The notes: generated by a model from the letters alone, not told the origin. Shown: positions 3,109 to 31,854, counted from the stretch's first letter. The stretch: DNA of 64,000 nt from Methanomassiliicoccus sp. (GCA_012719175.1 JAAYAX010000004.1:124001-188000); one strand, 5' to 3'. Program-made: numbers and translations.

Positions 3109-5325
3109 GTGGCCATTTCCATACCTGACAGGCTCCGAGAGCCGTCATTCCGTTTTGTTCTGGTCAAAGCGAAAGACAAAAGCCCCATTGAAAAGGACTG
3201 GCAGAAAAATGCGAACTATCCATGCGAGGACCCCAAATTATCGAGACACCTGGGCAAGGACGGCAACTATGGAGTGCTCTGCGGTATCAATGGTCTGGCC
3301 GTTATTGACGCTGATTCCCCGGAAGTAGCAGCAGCCGTTGAAGAGTCCCTACCTCAGACCTTTACGGTCCAGACGGGAAGGGGAGGGCGCCATTTCTACT
3401 ATCGCTGTGCAGATCTGCCGGGTCCCCTCCGCCTAGCACGTCCTGGGGACGCCAAAGGGACGATAGGGGACGTTCAATCCACCGGGAAACAGGTCATTGG
3501 TCCAGGTAGCATCCATCCGAACGGGAACGCCTACACGGTCCTAAAGGACCTGCCCCTCGCCTCGATTAAGGCCGAGCAGATCAGGACGGCTCTCAGCGAC
3601 TTCCTGCCCCCTCCGGAGACAGACACGCTCGAAGATATGAAGAGAGAGCTGCCGAACAGGTCCAGGGACGTTGAACTGGACTCCCTGAAGGTCCAGGACG
3701 TTATCTCTATGGGTGGCCTCAAGGGGCTGGGCGGTAAGTTCCGTGGTTCCTGTCCCTGGCATGGCAGCAATACAGGCCATAACTTCGAGGTTGATATTTC
3801 TAAGAACGCCTGGTATTGCTTCCGGCACGGGACGGGAGGGGGACCCCTTCACGCCATCGCCGTACAGGAGAAGGTTCTGGATTGCGGTGATTGCGTCCCA
3901 GGAGCCTTGAGGGGAGAGAAGTTCAAGAGAGCCCTGGAGATCGCCCAGGATAAGCATGGACTCTGCCGGAAAGAAGCCATGTCGTCAGGACGCCTTGGGC
4001 GGAAGGGAAGCAAGGGTATTGAAAAAACGGCACCGATCGGCATACCATACGATTTGGAGCACGCCGAGATTTACAAAGAGGATGGTAAGCTTGGAGCGGC
4101 ATTAATTAAGGACGGTATCGAGATTGAATTTCATACCGTCAAGGAATGGCAGGAAATCGATGATAAAATTGTGAAATACCTGCATTACAAATTTTTGAGC
4201 ATGGATGAACTTCCTTGGAATTTACCAGAAAAGCCGGAGATCAACGAGGATTCGTCCCTTCTTACAGACATCATGAGATGTAATGATGAATATATAGAAT
4301 TCCCAGACGATATCACTCCTGCCAGCCTTGCGATCTGGCAAATCTCGACAGCTTTTGTTCCGTTCATCCCTAGGTCTCCGCTGCTATCACTTTTTGGACC
4401 TCCCATATCGGGTAAAGGGCAAATTCTGGACCAAATATATCTGATAGGGTATCGTGGTTTCAAGATGTCCAGACCGACACCGGCCGTCCTATATCGGGGA
4501 AGCCATTGGAACAAGACTACCTGGGCAATGGACGAACTTCAAGATTTAGGCCAGGAAGATTGGAACTCTTGCATGAACATCTTGAAATGTACCTACGACG
4601 GTACGCCAATTCCTCGATGTAACTGGACCAATACTGGCCTGGATATTTTCCGCCTAAGACCTTTCATGGCGGTTTCTTACAAGGATCAGGTCCCCCCTAA
4701 TGATGTAATGAGCAGGTCCATTAGCATCACAATGCCCAGGGGAGCAGGAAATAAGATATTGGTCGATGAAACAGAGGAACATATCCAGCTTAGAAGCAGG
4801 CTGTTAGCTCTGAGACTACGCCTATTCACACGTCCAGATTTAGTGAAGGAGTATAGAGATAAGGCGACAGAAACCCTCAATCTTGACGAAGTCGGCTTGA
4901 AAAATCGACCTAAAGATATTGCTAATTCTCTTTTGTTCGCAGGAAGTATGTTTAATCAAACCGAGGAAATAATAGAACTTATCAAACAGAGCACCGAGAA
5001 AGAAATCGAGCAGAGCAAAGATACCTTTGAAGCCTTTGTTTATTATGGATTGGACGAACTCTGGAAAGATTTTCACAAGGATAAGATTTATACTACCTTT
5101 GTCCGGGAACGGGTCGCTCAAACCCTGTTTGACCTGGGAGACCTGAAAGATAAGGCAGATCTGACCACACGGAGAGTTAATAAGGCCCTATACATCCTTG
5201 GATATAAACTTCCGAGGGGAGGGCAACACATCCCCTATATTGACAAGCTAGATAGGACTAATATAAAAGCGCATGAAGTGAATGGCCGCCGCTATCCTCC
5301 ACTAATGGATGAGAATAAGAGATGA
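3109..5325 (+). CDS. Primase-polymerase with zinc motif and helicase-like ATPase domain
   Basis: A 738-aa replication protein. Residues 1-150 match the bifunctional primase/polymerase (Prim-Pol) fold: VIDAD with D67 and D69, the GRGGRHFYY motif with H95, and GDVQSTGKQVIGPGS. Residues about 215-241 hold a CPWH...CFRH arrangement like a CHC2-type zinc ribbon. The C-terminal half has a P-loop-like GPPISGKG (430-437) and a Walker-B-like AMDE (D475, E476), suggesting a helicase/ATPase that unwinds the origin. Start is GTG 3109, 1 nt after the previous stop. This is the likely replication initiator of the element and implies a circular form. The final part has no motif I recognise. Confidence 0.85.
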   Translation: MAISIPDRLREPSFRFVLVKAKDKSPIEKDWQKNANYPCEDPKLSRHLGKDGNYGVLCGINGLAVIDADSPEVAAAVEESLPQTFTVQTGRGGRHFYYRCADLPGPLRLARPGDAKGTIGDVQSTGKQVIGPGSIHPNGNAYTVLKDLPLASIKAEQIRTALSDFLPPPETDTLEDMKRELPNRSRDVELDSLKVQDVISMGGLKGLGGKFRGSCPWHGSNTGHNFEVDISKNAWYCFRHGTGGGPLHAIAVQEKVLDCGDCVPGALRGEKFKRALEIAQDKHGLCRKEAMSSGRLGRKGSKGIEKTAPIGIPYDLEHAEIYKEDGKLGAALIKDGIEIEFHTVKEWQEIDDKIVKYLHYKFLSMDELPWNLPEKPEINEDSSLLTDIMRCNDEYIEFPDDITPASLAIWQISTAFVPFIPRSPLLSLFGPPISGKGQILDQIYLIGYRGFKMSRPTPAVLYRGSHWNKTTWAMDELQDLGQEDWNSCMNILKCTYDGTPIPRCNWTNTGLDIFRLRPFMAVSYKDQVPPNDVMSRSISITMPRGAGNKILVDETEEHIQLRSRLLALRLRLFTRPDLVKEYRDKATETLNLDEVGLKNRPKDIANSLLFAGSMFNQTEEIIELIKQSTEKEIEQSKDTFEAFVYYGLDELWKDFHKDKIYTTFVRERVAQTLFDLGDLKDKADLTTRRVNKALYILGYKLPRGGQHIPYIDKLDRTNIKAHEVNGRRYPPLMDENKR

Positions 5326-5507
5326 ATCTTAACCTTTTAACCTCCCCTTACCTTTTTTTAACCTCGATATTTTGGCCTATCCAGATACGGGCCGACGTTA
5401 AGAAAGTTAAGAAGGTTAAGTTTTTTGAAAGGGGTGAGTGGGAGAGCGAATACAACGGACAAATTGTTTCTTTTCGGAATGCTATAGGGCATCTTGGAGG
5501 GACCTGA
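5322..5507 (+). CDS. Possible 61-aa protein between primase and integrase
   Basis: ATG 5322 overlaps the primase stop by 4 nt (ATGA) and the stop lies 2 nt before the integrase ATG, so the position suits translational coupling. The protein has a hydrophobic start and a KKVKKVK stretch encoded by short direct repeats (GTTAAGAA). It may be real or only a spacer that happens to be open. Confidence 0.35.
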   Translation: MNLNLLTSPYLFLTSIFWPIQIRADVKKVKKVKFFERGEWESEYNGQIVSFRNAIGHLGGT

Positions 5508-5509
5508 TA

Positions 5510-6487
5510 ATGGCAAGACCTCGATGGTCCCTCGATCAAGAAGTAGCAGAATATCTTCGAGAATTGGAGGACGGCGGAAGGAGCCCTATGACAATTCAAG
5601 ACTACCGTTGGGCATTGAATCACCTATTCAATGGTCTTGAAGATGCAAAGATGACCCTTAACCCTCGAAAGGTAGGGAAGAAGGAAATCGAGTATCTTAG
5701 GGATGACTACCTTACCCAATGCAACAGGACGAGATCAAACCTTATCAAAATCCTTTTAGGCTTTTTGAGGTGGGCGGGGAATACCCAGATAGCTAAACTC
5801 CGATTCAGTTTCGGAGACACTTCCCCTAGGAATATCCGATGGCTCACCGATGATGAAGCAACCACCGTTAGGTTGAACGCTGTGGGATTGGAAAGGATAG
5901 TCACGCATTGCGAGCTGGACCTAGGCTTGAGAAGGTGTGAGGTCCTAAGGCTCAAGGTGAATGACTTCAAGGATGGCCGACAACCGGCCATCTTCATCCA
6001 CGGTAAGGGCCGAGACGGTGGGAAGTTCAGACAGATAAGCTGGCATCCAGAAACAGCCTCGTTCTTAGATGAATATCTGGATATGAGAAACATGGAAATC
6101 AAGAAGGCTAGAAAGAAAGATCCTTCGGTCAAGATTCCCAATATGTTGCTCATCTACGAACGGGGAGGGAAGCTGAACGCTTACCAGAAAACCGCCGTGG
6201 ACAATCTATTGAAGGATCTTGGTCAAAGAATTGGTTTCGAGTTCTCGAACCATGATCTCAGACGCACCTGTGGGCGTATGATGTACCGTGCGGGCGTGAC
6301 CCTAGAAGAGATCGCACGTATCTTTGGACACGCCGACACTAGGACAACTGCGCACTATATCGGTCTAGACCTTGAGGATATGGACCACGCAATGGCGAAA
6401 TATGCCAGCTATCAAAAATCCTTTGTTGTACCGCAAATGGTACAAAATGAGCTTAGCCAGGAAAAAAGTGGACAGAGCGGGATTTGA
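5510..6487 (+). CDS. Tyrosine recombinase (integrase) of the tRNA-Ala element
   Basis: A 325-aa phage-type integrase that would integrate and excise the element. An N-terminal core-binding SAM-like domain (residues 1-110) precedes the catalytic domain with R141 (GLRRCEVLRL), the HDLRR box (H248, R251), H274 (FGHAD) and nucleophile Y283 (AHYIG). GGAGG at 5496-5500 lies 9 nt before ATG 5510, which fixes the start. The final codons and stop (6469-6487) lie inside the tRNA-Ala gene on the other strand, so the gene tail is built from the attachment site itself. Confidence 0.92.
   Translation: MARPRWSLDQEVAEYLRELEDGGRSPMTIQDYRWALNHLFNGLEDAKMTLNPRKVGKKEIEYLRDDYLTQCNRTRSNLIKILLGFLRWAGNTQIAKLRFSFGDTSPRNIRWLTDDEATTVRLNAVGLERIVTHCELDLGLRRCEVLRLKVNDFKDGRQPAIFIHGKGRDGGKFRQISWHPETASFLDEYLDMRNMEIKKARKKDPSVKIPNMLLIYERGGKLNAYQKTAVDNLLKDLGQRIGFEFSNHDLRRTCGRMMYRAGVTLEEIARIFGHADTRTTAHYIGLDLEDMDHAMAKYASYQKSFVVPQMVQNELSQEKSGQSGI
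6469..6487. other. Attachment-site half: tRNA 3' end overlapping integrase stop
   Basis: The 3' end of tRNA-Ala (minus strand) also encodes the last residues SGQSGI and stop of the integrase. Elements that use tRNA 3' ends leave the host gene intact and place a copy of the 3' end at their far end. I see no second copy to the left inside the window, so the other border should lie before position 1. Confidence 0.6.
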
Positions 6488-6541
6488 ACCCGCGGCCTCG
6501 ACATTGCGAATGTCGCGATCTTCCAGCTGATCTATCTGCCC
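6469..6541 (-). tRNA. tRNA-Ala (anticodon CGC)
   Basis: A 73-nt cloverleaf on the minus strand. The acceptor arm GGGCAGA pairs with TCTGTCC and includes the G3:U70 wobble pair that identifies alanine tRNAs, with discriminator A. The anticodon stem is CGACA/TGTCG around loop TTCGCAA, giving anticodon CGC. The T arm is GCGGG-TTCAAAT-CCCGC. No intron and no encoded CCA. It is the integration target of the element to its left. Confidence 0.95.
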
Positions 6542-21854: not shown

Positions 21855-21945
21855 GATAACCCCCATGGATTATGGCTGCGTAATAAATAGTTAATCCTCC
21901 GCCCCCGTCCTGATTTCCTAGGAGCGAACTGGCGCCGAAAGGAGT

Positions 21946-22902
21946 TTACGCGCCGGTCTCCGACTGGCTTGACATTTCGGGAGTCAGTGAGTCTAGCGCC
22001 GCCCTCATCTCGCACGAGTCCACGCCGATGTACGCTCTGAACGTCTGACCGCAGTCCTCGTGCCTCAGTATCTTGGCGATGGTCTCTATCGGCCATCCCC
22101 GGCGGTGCAGCCGGTGGCCCAACGTCCGGCGCAGATCGTGCATGCCGAACCGCAGTTTCATCCTCTCGGAGAGGATGATGGCGATGTCCCGCATGTCGTC
22201 CTTGTCTGCCCGGCGCATCCTGGCCGGTCGGAAGTAAGTCGTTTCCTTCCACACCAGGAACTCGGACGGCGGGGCATGGTTCCTCTCGAACATCTTCTCG
22301 CGCTCGGCGAGGTACCGCTTCAGCGGCCCGATGGTGTACTTGGAGAAGGTCTGCAGGGCCATCTTGCCCCCGTCGCGGCCCTTCCCTAATATCTCGCTCT
22401 CCCCGAAGTCCAGGAACTCCAGGGCGTTCTCCATCGTCAGGTTGTGGATGTCCACGCACCGCAGGCCGTTGTCCACGGCTAACGATATCACCAGCTCTGC
22501 CAGCGGGCCGAGCCTTGCCGCCTCCTGGTGCAGCTTCGCCACCTGCCGCTCGCTCAGGAACACCCCTCCGCGATATGGCGTGGGATGCCTCGCAACGCGC
22601 CATTTCAGCGCGTCCTGGTTGCCGCTGTATCTCAGGAAGGCCCGGATGACGGACAGCTTCTTCGCGAACGTCCTCTCCGAGCCGCCCGAGATCTGCGACT
22701 CCAGCGCCTTCATCTGAGCGAGCGTCACGTGCCTGGGGTCCGGTAGGCCGAGCAGCTGCCCGGCCTCGTACAGTATCCCCTGATACTCGTAAACGGTCTT
22801 CTTCCTCACCACGCCGCGCTCGGTCCTGGCGTCCCTCGGGCGCAGTGACGTAAGGTATTCTCTGATGGCCTCGTAGAACGCCCCCTGCTTCGCATAGGGC
22901 AT
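21946..22902 (-). CDS. Tyrosine recombinase (integrase) of the provirus
   Basis: A 318-aa integrase. An N-terminal SAM-like core-binding domain (about 1-105) is followed by the catalytic domain with R148 (DNGLRCVDIHN), HDLRR with H255 and R258, H281 (LRHED) and nucleophile Y291. It differs from the integrase at 5510, with almost no shared stretches outside the catalytic boxes. It forms the left end of the provirus between purB and the control operon. No tRNA gene is adjacent, so the attachment site is elsewhere or non-tRNA. Confidence 0.9.
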   Translation of the reverse strand: MPYAKQGAFYEAIREYLTSLRPRDARTERGVVRKKTVYEYQGILYEAGQLLGLPDPRHVTLAQMKALESQISGGSERTFAKKLSVIRAFLRYSGNQDALKWRVARHPTPYRGGVFLSERQVAKLHQEAARLGPLAELVISLAVDNGLRCVDIHNLTMENALEFLDFGESEILGKGRDGGKMALQTFSKYTIGPLKRYLAEREKMFERNHAPPSEFLVWKETTYFRPARMRRADKDDMRDIAIILSERMKLRFGMHDLRRTLGHRLHRRGWPIETIAKILRHEDCGQTFRAYIGVDSCEMRAALDSLTPEMSSQSETGA

Positions 22903-25245: not shown

Positions 25246-25322
25246 TGCTTTCGGTCTTGCCGAATGCAGAATGGTGATAGCCTGGGTGAATATTAATGCT
25301 TTCGGCTTTGTAGAATGCAGAA
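25246..25322. repeat. Two 26-bp direct repeats upstream of winged-helix gene
   Basis: Copies at 25246-25271 and 25297-25322 share TGCTTTCGG and GAATGCAGAA ends with a few changes between. They are 51 bp apart, about five helical turns. CCGAAA after the second copy is complementary to TTTCGG. Placed just before the gene at 25367, they are probable binding sites of its product (inference). Confidence 0.55.
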
Positions 25323-25366
25323 CACCGAAACTAAATTATAATATTCTACATAAATATACATGCTTG

Positions 25367-25657
25367 ATGGCTTCTGCAGTGTACAAAGCACAACTCATGG
25401 AGGAGAGGCTATCAATTGCTGTTCTTTTAACCCTGGCAGAGGAGAAAGAGCCTATTGTCAAAGGTGTTCTCGCAAGTAAAATCGCGAGGAGCGCCGGAAC
25501 GGTGATCGACCGAGTTAATGAGCTATTGGAGGCAGGCCTTGTCACTGAGTCCAAAGAGGAGACTCGCCCCTTCCGTAAGTTTGTTGAGCTCACCCCCCGG
25601 GGCCGCACCGTTGCTGAGCACCTTGCGGCCATCGAGGAGATCTTGGAGGAGAAATAA
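25367..25657 (+). CDS. Winged-helix regulator of the TcmP module
   Basis: A 96-aa protein with VKGVLASKIARSAGTVIDRV (recognition helix region), NELLEAGLVTESKEE and FVELTPRGRTVAEHL (wing), the layout of MarR/ArsR-type winged helices. ATG 25367 sits after an AT-rich TATA region (CTAAATTATAATATTC). Its stop overlaps the TcmP ATG by 1 nt (TAATG), so the two are co-translated. It probably controls this module. Confidence 0.8.
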   Translation: MASAVYKAQLMEERLSIAVLLTLAEEKEPIVKGVLASKIARSAGTVIDRVNELLEAGLVTESKEETRPFRKFVELTPRGRTVAEHLAAIEEILEEK

Positions 25658-26547
25658 TGGCAAGACCCAAGATAAAAAGAAATGAATTGTTTGCGCGGGT
25701 CAGGGCCAGGCGGGAAGGTATCCTAGCACAAGAAATCACGCCAGATGGACGTTTGTTGCCTGCTCGTACAATAGAACAATATGGGGAACAAAAATTAACC
25801 TATCTTAGAAAATACCTCTGGATATATAGTGCCATCATTTCAAATCATTTTGATAAAATGTGGTACTTAGAAACCTGTTCCGGTCCAGGGGTGAACCAGA
25901 TAAAAAACTCCGAACGGAGGGTTCTCGGGACCCCAATGTTGGCTTTAACGAACGAGCCTAATTTCACCGGCTATAGGTTCGTTGAGCTGAACCTAGATTT
26001 AAAAAACGCACTCGATGCACGTATCGCCCATTACTGTCCGGGAGTAGATGCAAAAGTGGAACATGGGGACTGTAATCTTGCATTCGAGAGAGCGCTGGCC
26101 GACATAGGCCATAATGATCATTTCCTGGCCTTTATGGATCCAGAGGGTTTGGAGCTCAAGTGGGACAGGACCGTCGCCTTAGCTGGCCGTTTCCCTCATT
26201 CAGAGCTATACATAAATTTCACTTACCATATGGCCATCCAGCGTCTGATCACTACGCCAAGCTGTGAACAGACTGTTACTGAATATATGGGTTCTGACAA
26301 GTGGATAGCCATTAGAGATCAATATGTCAGTGGAAAGATCAATCACAATCAGTTTAGGCAGGGCATGCTGAACCTTTATCTTGATGGATTGCGAAACCTT
26401 GGTTATTCTCTGACAACGGTTTCGGATGTAATCAGGGGGGCCAATCATCAACCACTCTACTATCTCATTCACGCTACCAAGGCCGAGGTAGCTCAGGATA
26501 CGATGAAGGACGTTATGAGGGTCAAAAAGCAACAGACGTTATTCTGA
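25657..26547 (+). CDS. tcmP: Three-Cys-motif partner protein TcmP
   Basis: A 296-aa protein of the TcmP family. It carries YGEQKLTYLRKYLWIYSAII, then YLETCSGPGVN, GTPMLAL, FVELN, VEHGDCN and FLAFMDPEGLELKW, an arrangement resembling a Rossmann-like methyltransferase fold. Family knowledge: it usually neighbours a protein with three conserved cysteines such as a radical-SAM or Gp37/Gp68-type protein. Here the partner is the convergent gene at 26548-27597. The gene is AT-rich relative to its surroundings, suggesting recent transfer. Biochemical role unknown. Confidence 0.85.
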   Translation: MARPKIKRNELFARVRARREGILAQEITPDGRLLPARTIEQYGEQKLTYLRKYLWIYSAIISNHFDKMWYLETCSGPGVNQIKNSERRVLGTPMLALTNEPNFTGYRFVELNLDLKNALDARIAHYCPGVDAKVEHGDCNLAFERALADIGHNDHFLAFMDPEGLELKWDRTVALAGRFPHSELYINFTYHMAIQRLITTPSCEQTVTEYMGSDKWIAIRDQYVSGKINHNQFRQGMLNLYLDGLRNLGYSLTTVSDVIRGANHQPLYYLIHATKAEVAQDTMKDVMRVKKQQTLF

Positions 26548-27597
26548 TCATAACGTGCAGTTGCACTTGATCTCCTTGTAGTCCAGGCCGACCCTTTCCC
26601 ACATGTCCACAGTCTCCTTGCATAAGGCTACGTTGGAATAACCGTGGTCCTTCTTCAGCTTCCTGATCATGAACTTATACATGTCGACCCTGGTCTCGGT
26701 CGCGATCTTCCGGCCCCAGTTGGACTTCTCCTCCAGGAACGGGACCCAGGACTTGTCGCGTGAGTTATTGATCGTGCTTTGAAGCCCTCTCAGCGATCCC
26801 ATGGTGATACGGGACGGCACGAACCGGTCGAAGATCAGGTCCAGCAGAGCACCGTACTCCTTCTTCCAGCCCTCGATAGGGACCATTGGATCTATCCGCG
26901 CCCGGACCTCGAAGCCCGCGTCGGCGAGCTTACCGGCCGCTTCTATGCGGTCCTGTACCGCCGGGGCCTTCTCCCACTGCTCCGCGACCTTCTCCGCGTT
27001 CAGGCTGAAGCTTACGATCGCCTGCTCCTTGTTAGGTACCTTGAGCAGATTGTCCACCCTGTTGGACTTGGTGACGAAAAGGACCTTGTGCAGGTCCTGC
27101 TTGGCCATCAGGTCCATGATGAAGGTCGAGAACGGATGATCGCTGTTCTCCATGATCATTGAGTCCGAGAGCTCGCCGGCGTTGAGCAGTTCGGGCCGGA
27201 CCCCATCGCCATCGATGAACGCCTCAACATTGTTCTTGATCCTGATGTAGTTCTTCGGCATGGGCTTGGTCTTGTACTCAAGGAAACGAAATGTTCCTTG
27301 CAGGTAGCACCATGCGCAGCTGTAAGGGCAACCGGTAGCCCACTTCAGCTCAAGGAAGTGGGGGCAGACAACATCCGTCGGTTCTTTAGGCAGAGGGGTC
27401 TTATCAAAACGGGTGATGATGGAACCATCGCCTACCCTGGCGACCATGCGTTCTTTGGATCCATCTAATTTTTCATATTCCTCTGTCTTGACCTTCAAAT
27501 CGCTGACCGTCCTCGAAGGTGTGTGTACAGCACCGTCCGATAAAGGTTTTGCTGGATATAATGTCTGCTGAGTAATCATTAGTGCATCACCATTCAT
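26548..27597 (-). CDS. Radical-SAM protein, spore photoproduct lyase-like
   Basis: A 349-aa protein with the radical-SAM cluster motif CPYSCAWC (C90, C94, C97) and VVCPHFLELKW before it, as in SplB/SPL-family proteins. Further blocks are VLFVTKSNRVDNLL, IVSFSLNAEKVAEQWE and ARIDPMVPIEGWKKEY. The C-terminus ends CNCTL, an extra cysteine pair. It probably uses a 4Fe-4S cluster and SAM to repair or modify nucleic acid. Its stop abuts the TcmP stop with no gap. A TATA-like box (TTTTATATTAAAA) about 23 nt upstream of ATG 27597 suggests a leaderless message. Confidence 0.85.
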   Translation of the reverse strand: MNGDALMITQQTLYPAKPLSDGAVHTPSRTVSDLKVKTEEYEKLDGSKERMVARVGDGSIITRFDKTPLPKEPTDVVCPHFLELKWATGCPYSCAWCYLQGTFRFLEYKTKPMPKNYIRIKNNVEAFIDGDGVRPELLNAGELSDSMIMENSDHPFSTFIMDLMAKQDLHKVLFVTKSNRVDNLLKVPNKEQAIVSFSLNAEKVAEQWEKAPAVQDRIEAAGKLADAGFEVRARIDPMVPIEGWKKEYGALLDLIFDRFVPSRITMGSLRGLQSTINNSRDKSWVPFLEEKSNWGRKIATETRVDMYKFMIRKLKKDHGYSNVALCKETVDMWERVGLDYKEIKCNCTL

Positions 27598-28176: not shown

Positions 28177-29166
28177 TTACTCCGTAACGATGTCAACGTT
28201 CTTCTGCTGCCTGTCATGGATTCCCTGGTTAATCGGCATCGTTTTTACGTAAGCCTTTCCAAGGTTGTTCTCGATGATTTTCACGACTGGTGAGAAGTTG
28301 AATGTATGCATTGTCGCGTGAAACGTCGATAGGACCGCATCTTGGAAGTCCTGATCAGACTCAAGCTCATCGACCTTTAACCCATAAGAACGGACAGTAG
28401 CGCAATCCAGCGGCCGCCCATGGCTGAGCATCGCATTATGATCTGATAGCTTTTCGGCGATTGCCATCCCCTTTTCTGTGGCATCCTGTTCACCTTTGAA
28501 CATGTAGTTGGTTAGCCACTGGGAAACGAGCACCTTGGACAAGGTGATAGCGTTGGTACATTCTATCAAGAACGATGGACCATATTGGCTGAGCATGGGT
28601 AGCCATGAAGTGAGCTTCTGCGGATCCTTACACTCTTCCTGCGCCCTTTTAAACTGGTCAAGGACAGCGACCGCTGGGACCATCTTAACTCCCAAAGGAG
28701 TCATTATGGTGAACTGCGGGTCCACTGGCCCAAGCACGGAGTGCTTGCCCATGATGACCCTGTCTGAGGAGCAAGCAATCATGGTTGCCGCTGACATGGC
28801 GGCCTGAGGTACTACCACCCTTACATCGGAGAATTTTGCTCTTATATACTTCACCAAAGCCTCGGCTGCCGTTGGGCTCCCGCCGGGACTGTGAATGACC
28901 AGGTCGAGCCCCTTAGAGTAGTCGAGGTCGTGGATCGCCTCCATGAAGCCATGGATATCTTCATTGTTCACCATTGTCAACCCAGGGTTGAGGCCCTCAG
29001 TAGGGACAGTCCACCTACTTGAGTAAAGGATGGTATTCCTACCTGATACTTCGCTCATCCTGGCCAGGTACTTCCTCCTGATGTTGTCCAGGGAATGAGG
29101 CCCGTCGGTTGCAAGTCCTATCTTAATCTCTTTTAGAATGTCTCCCCAAGATGGCGCTTTTACCAC
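28177..29166 (-). CDS. Serine dehydrogenase proteinase-like (SDH_sah/SppA-type) protease
   Basis: About 329 aa. It has the ClpP/SppA-type motifs HSPGGSPTAAEALVKYIR and VPQAAMSAATMIACSSD, the latter carrying the likely nucleophile Ser, then SVLGPVDPQ. This matches the SDH_sah family of crotonase-fold serine proteases. No signal peptide or membrane anchor, so it is cytoplasmic. GTG 29166 overlaps the upstream small gene stop by 1 nt (TAGTG); a TTG 29193 start is less likely. Target unknown; cargo of the provirus. Confidence 0.85.
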   Translation of the reverse strand: MVKAPSWGDILKEIKIGLATDGPHSLDNIRRKYLARMSEVSGRNTILYSSRWTVPTEGLNPGLTMVNNEDIHGFMEAIHDLDYSKGLDLVIHSPGGSPTAAEALVKYIRAKFSDVRVVVPQAAMSAATMIACSSDRVIMGKHSVLGPVDPQFTIMTPLGVKMVPAVAVLDQFKRAQEECKDPQKLTSWLPMLSQYGPSFLIECTNAITLSKVLVSQWLTNYMFKGEQDATEKGMAIAEKLSDHNAMLSHGRPLDCATVRSYGLKVDELESDQDFQDAVLSTFHATMHTFNFSPVVKIIENNLGKAYVKTMPINQGIHDRQQKNVDIVTE

Positions 29167-29339
29167 TATCCCGACCGGTCGGAGGCAATACAATACTGGA
29201 TCGGTTTCATCGCGAGTTCATAAGGAACAATCTGATCCATGACCTCCTGGGCGTCGCGATAGATTTTCATGATAGCCTCTATACCGGCATCACTCATTGC
29301 TTCTCTCTCCAACTCCTCCGAGGTCTTCTCATCTACCAT
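29166..29339 (-). CDS. 57-aa protein coupled to the protease
   Basis: The frame starts MVDEKTSEELEREAMSDAGI and continues IYRDAQEVMDQIVPYELAM. GGGGA lies 7 nt before ATG 29339 (ATG 29345 also in frame). The stop overlaps the protease GTG by 1 nt, so the two proteins are made together; a small protein coupled to a protease could be an adaptor, inhibitor or substrate (inference). Confidence 0.6.
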   Translation of the reverse strand: MVDEKTSEELEREAMSDAGIEAIMKIYRDAQEVMDQIVPYELAMKPIQYCIASDRSG

Positions 29340-29437: not shown

Positions 29438-29752
29438 TCACTCCATCCGCAAAACCTGCTCAAAGCACACCCGGTGCACGTACCCGTACCGTAGCCCCCA
29501 GGCCTTGCTCCGGAGGAAGAGCTCGTAGCTTACGGTGAGAACGTCCAGGGGCTCCCCGCACAGCTCGCACTGCGTGACGTGCCCGAGATCATAACGTGAA
29601 GGGCCGTCGTACTCCAGGACCTCCAGGCCGCTATCCTTCAGCGCCATCTGCAGGTGCATGACGTTGTACAAGCGGTCCTGGGCGAGGCGCAGGACCTCGA
29701 CCTCCTCCCGCAGGTCCTCGATCTGCCGGTGGATCGGGATCACCTTGCTCAT
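29438..29752 (-). CDS. Zinc-site 104-aa protein
   Basis: ATG 29752 overlaps the preceding stop by 4 nt. N-terminal coiled-coil (QIEDLREEVEVLRLAQDRL), then a CELCGEP motif and HRVC near the end that could bind one zinc. No family recognised. Second gene of a two-gene minus-strand unit. Confidence 0.6.
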   Translation of the reverse strand: MSKVIPIHRQIEDLREEVEVLRLAQDRLYNVMHLQMALKDSGLEVLEYDGPSRYDLGHVTQCELCGEPLDVLTVSYELFLRSKAWGLRYGYVHRVCFEQVLRME

Positions 29753-29979
29753 CGCCGGCACGCTCCGCAGCTCTTGCACCACTCCCTCATCGGCAGCACC
29801 GACGGCAGCCCCAGGTCGTAGGATATCTCCGCGCTCGTGCTCGTCTCTACGGTATCCAGCGCCGCCTCGATGATGTATATGGCGGGGCACTCCTCGCGAT
29901 GATCATCACCTACCTCGTGCTCTATACGATCTCTCAGCGTACGAAGATACTTCTCCAAGCGAATTGCCTCCTGGTTCAC
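29749..29979 (-). CDS. 76-aa protein with C-terminal Cys cluster
   Basis: GTG 29979 follows a GAGG-rich stretch. Charged helical start (NQEAIRLEKYLRTLRDRIEH) and an ending CKSCGACRR that may coordinate zinc. Overlaps the next gene by 4 nt. No family recognised. Confidence 0.55.
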   Translation of the reverse strand: MNQEAIRLEKYLRTLRDRIEHEVGDDHREECPAIYIIEAALDTVETSTSAEISYDLGLPSVLPMREWCKSCGACRR

Positions 29980-30204: not shown

Positions 30205-31854
30205 ATGGCCGACGATCCTAAGGAAAATTTTCTGTATTATGGGGATAACCTGGACATCCTCCGCCGTTATATCGAGGATGAGTCCGTAGATCTCGTTTAT
30301 CTCGATCCGCCGTTCAAGAGCCAGCAAGATTATAATGTCCTGTTCGCCGAGAGGAACGGTGAGCAGGCCGCTGCTCAGATCAAGGCGTTCGAGGACACGT
30401 GGCGATGGGATCGTTCCGCCGCTGAGGCCTACGAGAGCGTTGTTCTCCTTGGAGGCAAGGTCTCCGATGCCATGTCGGCCCTATATAAATTCCTTGGACC
30501 GAGCGACATGATGGCCTACCTAGCCATGATGGCACCACGTCTGATCGAATTACAACGCGTTATAAAACGGACTGGTTGGTTATATCTTCATTGCGATCCC
30601 ACGGCAAGCCATTATCTTAAATTGCTATTGGATGCTGTTTTTGGTCCGGAAAACTTCAGAAATGAAATTGTTTGGCGCCGATCGCAACCGAAGGGTCACG
30701 CAGTCCTCAGATTCAGCAGAGCTCATGATACCATCTTATCATATGCAAAAACAAATGATGCAATTTTTTATCCTCAATATAAAGAGCACGATCCGGAGTA
30801 TGTCGAAAAATTCTATAGATTCATAGAAGAAGGTTCTGGTCGACGCTATAGATTAGATAATCTCGCAAATCCAAATAAAAATCGTCCAAACCTGACCTAT
30901 GAATTCCCACCAGGATCGGGTATTGTTCGAGTATGGCGTTGGACTGAAGAGCGTATGAAAAAGGCATGGGAGGATGGTCTAGTCGTCCAGACAAGGGAAG
31001 GCGGGGTGGTTTCCCAAAAGCGGTATCTTGACGAAATGGATGGCACACTAATTACTGATTTTTGGGACGACATAGAACACTTACATGGGTCTCATCATGA
31101 AGCGCTGGGGTACCCAACACAAAAACCTGAAGGGCTGCTCGAGCGAATAATCCAGGCTTCCACAGCCGATGATGCTTTGGTTCTAGATCCGTTCTGCGGC
31201 TGTGGGACGACCATAGCTGTGGCGGAGAAATTACACCGCCAATGGATCGGCATTGACATCACACATCTTGCGATCTCATTGATGAGACATCGCCTGGACG
31301 ATTCGTTTGGCGATCAAGCCATCTATAAGGTCATCGGTGAGCCAGTATCTTTGCCGGACGCGGAGGAACTCGCCCAGACAGACCCGTACCAGTTCCAGTG
31401 GTGGGCTCTGGGTCTGGTCGGGGCCCGTCCTGCCGAAGGGAAGAAAGGCGCCGATAAAGGCATCGATGGCCGCTTGATGTTCTTCGTTGAGAACGGTAAG
31501 CCCGAGCAGATCATCTTCTCGGTCAAGGCTGGTAATGTCACTGTCTCCCATGTGCGGGATCTTGTGGGTGTGGTGCAACGTGAGAAGGCGGCCATCGGTG
31601 TGCTCATCAGCATGCACGAGCCGACAGCACCGATGAGGGCGGAGGCCGCGTCGGCCGGTTCCTACATATCTAAGGAGCTCGGCAATCCAAGATATCCGAA
31701 GATCCAGCTACTAACGATCCAGGACCTGTTAAATGGTCGGCGGGTCGACAGTCCACACTCTGTGAGGTCTTCGGAGCGGAACACAACCTTCAAAAAGGCC
31801 CCGGTCGTCAAGAAGAAAAAGAAAGAAGACAAGAAGCAGGCGAAGTTGATGTGA
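30205..31854 (+). CDS. DNA methyltransferase fused to PD-(D/E)xK-like nuclease domain
   Basis: A 549-aa protein. Motif IV DPPF (34-37) precedes motif I DPFCGCGTT (328-336), the order of beta-class N6-A/N4-C methyltransferases; the region between holds the target recognition part. After residue 390 a second domain begins with QFQWWALGLVG, then GADKGIDG (D421) and FSVKAG (K441), matching Mrr-like PD-(D/E)xK endonuclease folds in which the SxK replaces ExK. It may be a self-contained restriction-modification enzyme. The middle (about 30540-31120) is AT-rich while both flanks are GC-rich, suggesting an exchanged recognition domain. The tail is Lys-rich. Confidence 0.82.
   Translation: MADDPKENFLYYGDNLDILRRYIEDESVDLVYLDPPFKSQQDYNVLFAERNGEQAAAQIKAFEDTWRWDRSAAEAYESVVLLGGKVSDAMSALYKFLGPSDMMAYLAMMAPRLIELQRVIKRTGWLYLHCDPTASHYLKLLLDAVFGPENFRNEIVWRRSQPKGHAVLRFSRAHDTILSYAKTNDAIFYPQYKEHDPEYVEKFYRFIEEGSGRRYRLDNLANPNKNRPNLTYEFPPGSGIVRVWRWTEERMKKAWEDGLVVQTREGGVVSQKRYLDEMDGTLITDFWDDIEHLHGSHHEALGYPTQKPEGLLERIIQASTADDALVLDPFCGCGTTIAVAEKLHRQWIGIDITHLAISLMRHRLDDSFGDQAIYKVIGEPVSLPDAEELAQTDPYQFQWWALGLVGARPAEGKKGADKGIDGRLMFFVENGKPEQIIFSVKAGNVTVSHVRDLVGVVQREKAAIGVLISMHEPTAPMRAEAASAGSYISKELGNPRYPKIQLLTIQDLLNGRRVDSPHSVRSSERNTTFKKAPVVKKKKKEDKKQAKLM

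Follow-up and report, generated by a model that had tools for sequence, protein, structure and literature searches.

Whole-gene exchange of the methyltransferase-fold protein TcmP beside near-constant radical-SAM partners in archaeal and bacterial loci, plasmids and temperate phages

In a provirus of Methanomassiliicoccus sp., the gene of TcmP lies against a radical-SAM gene that is near-constant among its relatives, while TcmP is replaced whole. The same pattern, with one partner constant and the other replaced at the gene borders, is seen both with partners that resemble spore photoproduct lyase (SPL) and with partners of the DUF5131 family. The pairing of TcmP with a three-Cys radical-SAM protein already has a name and is recognised from its genomic neighbourhoods. 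New, as far as the literature shows, are the SPL-like class of partner (with the catalytic Cys lost and a set of Cys added), the fusions, the relationship to RlmJ and the exchange of TcmP; the literature search turned up neither an earlier account of such exchange next to a constant partner nor a functional paper on TcmP or DUF5131. The explanation considered best, with a probability of about 0.4, is a two-enzyme, SAM-dependent unit aimed at nucleic acid and expressed in lysogeny, in which TcmP would set the target and which most likely protects the lysogen from other viruses.

The module in its provirus

The window, a stretch of 64,000 nt, comes from an archaeal genome of 2.42 Mb (G000:C4:124001-188000). 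It carries a tailed-virus provirus of about 42.5 kb, which adjoins purB at its insertion point, spans 21934-64000 in the window and extends to 64425 in the genome. The features used in this work are listed below.

21934-21948, no strand: attL core GCCGAAAGGAGTTTA, 15 nt, present at both junctions
21946-22902, minus strand: tyrosine integrase of the provirus, adjoining attL (Pfam PF00589, 47.4 bits; PHROG integrase families)
25246-25271, plus strand: repeat/dyad copy 1, TGCTTTCGGTCTTGCCGAATGCAGAA, a putative operator, 22/26 identical to copy 2
25297-25322, plus strand: repeat/dyad copy 2, TGCTTTCGGCTTTGTAGAATGCAGAA, a putative operator, 51 nt from copy 1
25333-25345, plus strand: AAATTATAATATT, read from the sequence as a possible archaeal TATA box of a leaderless winged-helix/TcmP transcript
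25367-25657, plus strand: winged-helix regulator, 96 aa (weak Pfam/NCBIfam winged-helix matches, below cut-offs)
25657-26547, plus strand: TcmP, 296 aa, the half that is exchanged, with an RlmJ-like fold of class I methyltransferases (TIGR04474, PADLOC PDC-M41A, AlphaFold2, RlmJ matches)
26548-27597, minus strand: radical-SAM partner of SPL-like type, the half that stays constant, 349 aa (PF20903, CX3CX2C, AlphaFold2, SPL as best PDB match)
30205-31854, plus strand: second cargo gene of the provirus, outside the pair, an N6/N4 DNA methylase with a C-terminal Mrr-like domain (PF01555, 144.8 bits; PF04471, 31.7 bits)
64411-64425, just past the window end (G000:C4:188411-188425): attR copy of GCCGAAAGGAGTTTA

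The provirus has genes for integrase, terminase, portal, major head protein, tape measure and head-tail connector, many of the structural genes having weak PHROG matches only. In a genome of the same genus (G213) the site is empty and holds a single copy of the 15-nt core, with flanks 91% and 97% identical to those of the provirus genome; homology to G213 ends at 21948 and restarts past the window end. From these ends, the empty site and the viral genes, it follows that the module is cargo of the provirus, near its integrase end, and the term "cargo module" in an earlier note on this DNA is thereby borne out. Several neighbours were recorded in passing. The DNA methylase-Mrr gene (30205-31854) may be an independent restriction or modification gene, and between it and the module lies a ClpP/SDH-type serine protease (28177-29193) with a strong match to phrog_11747, a family of unknown function (E 1e-87). 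Integrated elements of the lineage repeatedly have a small conserved ORF (…CKSCGACRR) nearby (window 29749-29979, L020:7590-7817, G213:C6:16374-16604). Further to the left, a second recombinase-like ORF (5438-6541) ends at a tRNA-Ala (CGC) gene (6468-6541), which suggests another integrated element on that side.

The layout of the module is compact, as the earlier note had described. The winged-helix gene runs from an ATG at 25367 to a TAA at 25655-25657 and overlaps by 1 nt (TAATG, at 25657) with the TcmP gene, which opens with an ATG at 25657 and closes with a TGA at 26545-26547. The radical-SAM gene, on the minus strand, has its stop (TCA) at 26548-26550, so that the two convergent genes abut with contiguous stops and a 0-nt gap (26547/26548). 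The 26-bp direct repeats reported ahead of the regulator are present in two copies that agree at 22 of 26 positions, a match reached in 0 of 500 simulations (maximum 20; first-order Markov, 268-nt intergenic stretch). Each 26-nt repeat is an imperfect dyad, TGCTTTC-n9-GAATGCA, and may on that account be operator-like. TcmP is also AT-rich compared with its neighbours, its GC content being 45.5%, against 52.9% for the winged-helix gene, 54.2% for the radical-SAM gene and 63-67% for the genes leftward.

The claim of a three-gene module holds in part. The unit is present in close relatives, the closest relative of the regulator being the one at the same position in L020 (55.7% identity), and elsewhere the regulator differs or is absent. 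A related regulator directly upstream of TcmP is found only in the window, L020, L071 and L006, and in L003 it lies at 343 nt; the winged-helix gene was therefore rejected as a fixed third part, since other loci have other regulators or none. The repeats were likewise rejected as a common operator, because L020 is without them though its regulator is 56% identical to that of the window. The element that carries the L020 module also contains a 1617-aa Mrr-type helicase/methylase-like ORF (L020:1665-6518), which by inspection is type ISP restriction-like.

Pairing and exchange of TcmP

That the pair is known from genomic neighbourhoods, as the earlier note stated, is confirmed by NCBIfam TIGR04474 and by PADLOC candidates. 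The known pair of TcmP with phage Gp37/Gp68 (DUF5131) corresponds to TIGR04474 and to the phage-defence candidates PDC-M41 and PDC-M30 of PADLOC. The window pair resembles it in having a clear member of the TcmP family and a CX3CX2C partner, often convergent. It differs in that the partner is SPL-like (349 aa) and that component B of PDC-M41/PDC-M30 is not matched, whereas DUF5131 partners at other loci do match PADLOC.

Of 390 genomes of the phylum, 18 have TIGR04474, and in all readable cases a three-Cys protein is adjacent, of one of three kinds: SPL-like, DUF5131 or PA0069/Rv2578c-like (the last in L004, L005, L006 and L011). The association was also examined reciprocally at 80 archaeal and bacterial loci chosen by the radical-SAM protein alone, TcmP-chosen loci being left out. 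The contig ended too soon at 11 of the 80; TcmP was present at 59 of the 69 evaluable loci, and the other 10 had open flanks and no TcmP. At 8 of the 59 the two proteins form a single fused polypeptide, all of these fusions being bacterial and one of them interrupted. The link between TcmP and the radical-SAM protein is thus well upheld. Convergence as a fixed feature was rejected, since SPL-like loci are tandem in 39 cases versus convergent in 16, and 8 loci are fused.

Some SPL-like radical-SAM genes without a visible TcmP have other neighbours. One lies directly behind an HsdS-like gene (L048:6529-8945), one directly behind a type III restriction helicase-like gene (L055:5377-8969), and those of L044 and L095 lie near nuclease and methylase genes; these neighbours are perhaps other targeting partners. 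At L041:7751-10555 the radical-SAM gene sits between a 68-aa duplicate of the mnmE start and the complete mnmE, an insertion footprint. In L023, L039, L049, L060, L072 and L083 the SPL-like radical-SAM gene has beside it another, more distant one of about 360 aa, giving a version with two radical-SAM genes and TcmP.

In a set of 48 SPL-like pairs, the radical-SAM proteins share a median identity of 51% and the TcmPs one of 24%. By the radical-SAM gene, the closest relatives of the window are Methanomassiliicoccales, and compared with L020 the identities are 78% for the radical-SAM protein, 56% for the regulator and 23% for TcmP. The DNA common to the two is 26542-27570, exactly the radical-SAM gene, and the regulators lie beyond TcmP. 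The Methanoperedens loci give 91-95% for the radical-SAM protein versus 21-31% for TcmP; like the window case, they come from draft or metagenome assemblies. Similar values separate L026 from L030 (95% and 31%), L061 from L064 (92% and 23%) and L003 from L015 (80% and 25%), and both genes are kept in L057/L059 (92% and 94%). In 16 of 26 nearest-neighbour pairs TcmP is below 40%. At one chromosomal site, represented by L022 and L030, the DNA is homologous through the radical-SAM gene to 4760 (stop at 4762) and again from 5674 (TcmP stop at 5689), which means on both sides of TcmP and not inside it.

Fast evolution could have produced low identities of this kind. It is ruled out by the TcmPs that were not exchanged, which are 57-97% alike beside equally similar partners, and by the breaks of homology at the gene borders. 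Since related, unexchanged TcmPs stay so similar, the others have been replaced and have not merely evolved fast. The earlier note had read the AT-richness of TcmP as a sign of transfer; that TcmP alone is exchanged supports transfer more strongly than could be seen from this DNA by itself.

Exchange is equally evident beside DUF5131, a family present in 405 of the 72,556 records for plasmids and in 161 of the 50,697 for phages. In Streptomyces plasmids TcmP adjoins DUF5131 in 12/12 cases and is convergent with it in 11/12. For the plasmid pairs L131/L142 and L134/L140, DUF5131 is 93-95% identical and TcmP 23%, and the homology ends at 2328-2329, 18-30 nt short of the end of DUF5131.

Seven temperate phages of Gordonia share the order integrase, small HTH gene, metallo-protease, DUF5131, convergent TcmP and immunity repressor, except that two further genes follow the integrase in Bosnia and that other genes adjoin TcmP in Jablanski. 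The metallo-protease gene adjoins DUF5131 in 7/7 of the Gordonia phages with the pair. The spacing between TcmP and the repressor is 3 nt or a 4-nt overlap in 6/7. DUF5131 is 92-97% identical in all pairs of these phages; TcmP is 88-97% identical within a class, 51% between Fairfaxidum and Jablanski, and otherwise 21-27%. The breakpoints fall at 5228-5252 in comparisons of the L145 type, and in L144/L145 homology is back at 6441/6345, the 3' end of the repressor gene. The TcmP class does not follow the repressor: Bosnia and Easley share 85% in the repressor and 21% in TcmP, and Easley and ThankyouJordi share 37% in the repressor and 97% in TcmP. Because these are complete genomes of isolated phages, assembly error is no explanation for the exchange.

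The two proteins

The constant half has the fold of SPL. It matches the Pfam SPL domain PF20903 at 81.2 bits (cut-off 27), and with its AlphaFold2 model (pLDDT 91.2) Foldseek returned SPL as the best PDB match (E 2e-14), with LipA, Elp3 and MiaB also among the matches. It shares the radical-SAM core with SPL as well: the CX3CX2C motif CPYSCAWC supplies C90, C94 and C97 for the cluster and is invariant in 65 sequences, as are C78, C326, C345, C347 and E142. The active site differs. The catalytic Cys in SPL is essential and serves as the H-atom donor (PMC3742179). Its position (C141 in Bs, C140 in Gt) is Glu142 in 65/65 sequences; the SPL structures 4rh0 (C140A) and 4fhg (C140S) differ at one aligned residue, and this residue aligns with E142. 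In addition, the position of SPL Y96 is Trp in the window protein, and the match to the SPL equivalog TIGR04070 (87.9 bits) falls below the 400-bit cut-off. Because the catalytic Cys is replaced by an invariant Glu, the SPL reaction is not expected from this SPL-like fold. The four extra Cys (C78, C326, C345 and C347) could hold a second cluster or metal.

These data bear on the nucleic-acid repair that the earlier note had put forward. If the radical-SAM protein were an SPL-type enzyme for UV damage with TcmP as an accessory, the Pfam score and the best PDB match would be accounted for. The Glu at the essential position, the missed equivalog cut-off and the four extra invariant Cys tell against it, and the exchange of TcmP would be left unexplained, so that UV-damage repair is very improbable; SPL-type DNA repair was rejected because of the active site.

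PADLOC gave no match for the window radical-SAM protein, and the SPL-like variant is absent from PADLOC. Searches of plasmids and phages with this protein returned SPL-like matches only. Four viral contigs of IMG/VR (L100-L103) carry more distant relatives (33-36%) with no recognisable TcmP.

TcmP scores 128.6 bits against TIGR04474 (curated cut-off 53) and is a match of PDC-M41A of PADLOC (E 3e-16). A sequence search found no solved structure for it, and IMG/VR held no close viral relatives of the window TcmP. The first 14 PDB matches of its AlphaFold2 model (pLDDT 89.9) are all to E. coli RlmJ or relatives of it (E about 1e-7 to 1.6e-6; TM about 0.5). RlmJ is the 23S rRNA m6A2030 methyltransferase, and hhalign aligned the two with probability 86.5 (E 4.6e-6) over motif I, GSP, the acid of motif II and IDP. 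RlmJ needs K18 and D164, binds the ribose through E118 and the cofactor through S100 (PMC3814359). The counterpart of D164, D161 in TcmP, lies inside the hhalign alignment and is conserved in 56/56 sequences; that of K18, K46, is conserved in 54/54 aligned and lies outside the hhalign alignment, being matched by motif X order and fold order. The motif II acid E110 (RlmJ E118) is an acid in 56/56, and the position of S92 (RlmJ S100) is Ser in 50/56 and Thr in the window. TcmP thus resembles RlmJ in fold, motif I (D/E-x-x-A/S-G-x-G), GSP, motif II acid and the catalytic Lys and Asp. It differs in its structural-alignment identity of 10-13%, in being an accessory, mobile protein with a radical-SAM partner, and in motif IV, where the DPPY of RlmJ is absent and DPEG stands in the window, mostly DPxG across the family. 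TcmP is predicted to have SAM and a base as ligands. Transfer of a methyl group is plausible, and it is not assured because DPPY is replaced by DPxG.

The match to an rRNA methyltransferase, together with Elp3 and MiaB among the radical-SAM matches and the many pairs among housekeeping genes, would suit an RNA-modifying role, in which rRNA or tRNA of the host or provirus is altered at sites chosen by TcmP variants, so as to tune translation or to shield the RNA from RNA-cutting defences. A housekeeping role would not favour the repeated exchange of the targeting half, nor the patchy presence of the pair in the phylum (18/390 genomes), and this reading is judged unlikely. Ahead of it in rank, and improbable too, is a toxic modifier with a reversal enzyme: TcmP would add a harmful base modification, in abortive infection or addiction, and a single constant radical-SAM antidote would remove or prevent the products of many TcmPs. 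The SPL-like fold hints at reversal chemistry on bases, the pairing is tight with a convergent arrangement, and the pair is carried by plasmids and proviruses. Single-chain fusions would be unusual for a toxin and its antidote, the constant antidote would have to handle products of TcmPs only 20% alike, and the catalytic Cys of SPL is absent.

Function in the lysogen

The reading preferred here is a common reaction aimed by TcmP, and it is the best explanation because a constant radical-SAM enzyme is joined, sometimes by fusion, to an exchanged partner of methyltransferase fold. The gene order, the provirus, the fusions, the exchange and the conservation of cofactor-binding and catalytic residues are established from the sequences, and target choice by TcmP and defence as its result are inferred from them. 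The pair, carried by the provirus, would be expressed in the lysogenic state. TcmP would recognise the target, for which we infer nucleic acid, and probably modify a base; the radical-SAM partner would work on the same substrate or complex, with a chemistry independent of which TcmP is present. Replacement of the whole TcmP gene by that of a distant family member would then change the target. The winged-helix gene, translationally coupled to TcmP, may act as a local regulator at the two dyads. An analogy is offered by type I restriction, in which HsdS is the exchangeable targeting half of a constant enzyme. TcmP has no sequence relation to HsdS and is replaced as a whole gene, and for the mechanism the comparison serves by analogy only.

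The window pair lies in a provirus near the integrase and a regulator, and the Gordonia relatives are placed likewise. In prophage-mediated defence of Gordonia and Mycobacterium phages (CarolAnn 43/44, Sbash 30/31), the genes at work are variable ones that lie, in temperate phages, beside the integrase and the immunity repressor, and CarolAnn genes 43/44 are coexpressed with the repressor and give such defence (PMC6426606). TcmP occupies the same slot in the seven Gordonia phages, and it belongs to protein families different from those of CarolAnn 43/44 and Sbash 30/31. Defence in lysogeny is favoured because the pair lies in a provirus and because TcmP of the Gordonia phages sits next to the repressor, where CarolAnn 43/44 act. 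The literature yielded no test of TcmP modules for defence.

The same carriage by temperate viruses and plasmids would fit a counter-defence role, with the pair modifying the provirus's own nucleic acid against host restriction and TcmP variants matching different host systems; the provirus, moreover, has a DNA methylase as further cargo. The position next to the immunity repressor points to lysogenic and not early-infection expression, and chromosomal fusion loci without evident virus genes exist, which leaves counter-defence with a low probability.

The anti-virus idea of the earlier note therefore stands on the provirus and prophage setting and on the PADLOC candidate listing, and lacks a clear enrichment of defence genes nearby. 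Around SPL-like pairs, PADLOC matched few of 110 neighbouring genes, with no clear excess over 110 random genes. With archaeal-only controls and tallies in place of per-protein calls the test is a weak one, and the co-occurrence with other defence genes for which that note had proposed a search did not clearly emerge from it. The many SPL-like pairs among housekeeping genes also count against defence, and the SPL-like radical-SAM genes that have open flanks and no TcmP count against protection of the lysogen by a TcmP-aimed reaction. The variation of TcmP could, furthermore, stem from evasion of anti-defence proteins or from other pressures, and not from target choice.

TcmP and its partners are widespread, as the plasmid and phage records show, and whole-gene exchange beside a constant partner extends to two unrelated radical-SAM families and to isolated temperate phages of one laboratory host. 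Natural swaps, in which near-identical partners stand beside different TcmPs, exist already and make the function directly testable. If it is true that TcmP sets the target, the pair would represent a modular radical-SAM immunity. On a broader and more doubtful view, TcmP may serve several unrelated, constant radical-SAM enzymes as their universal, exchangeable half for targeting, in a modular, base-modifying antiviral immunity of proviruses and plasmids in bacteria and archaea that would gain its specificity through whole-gene exchange.
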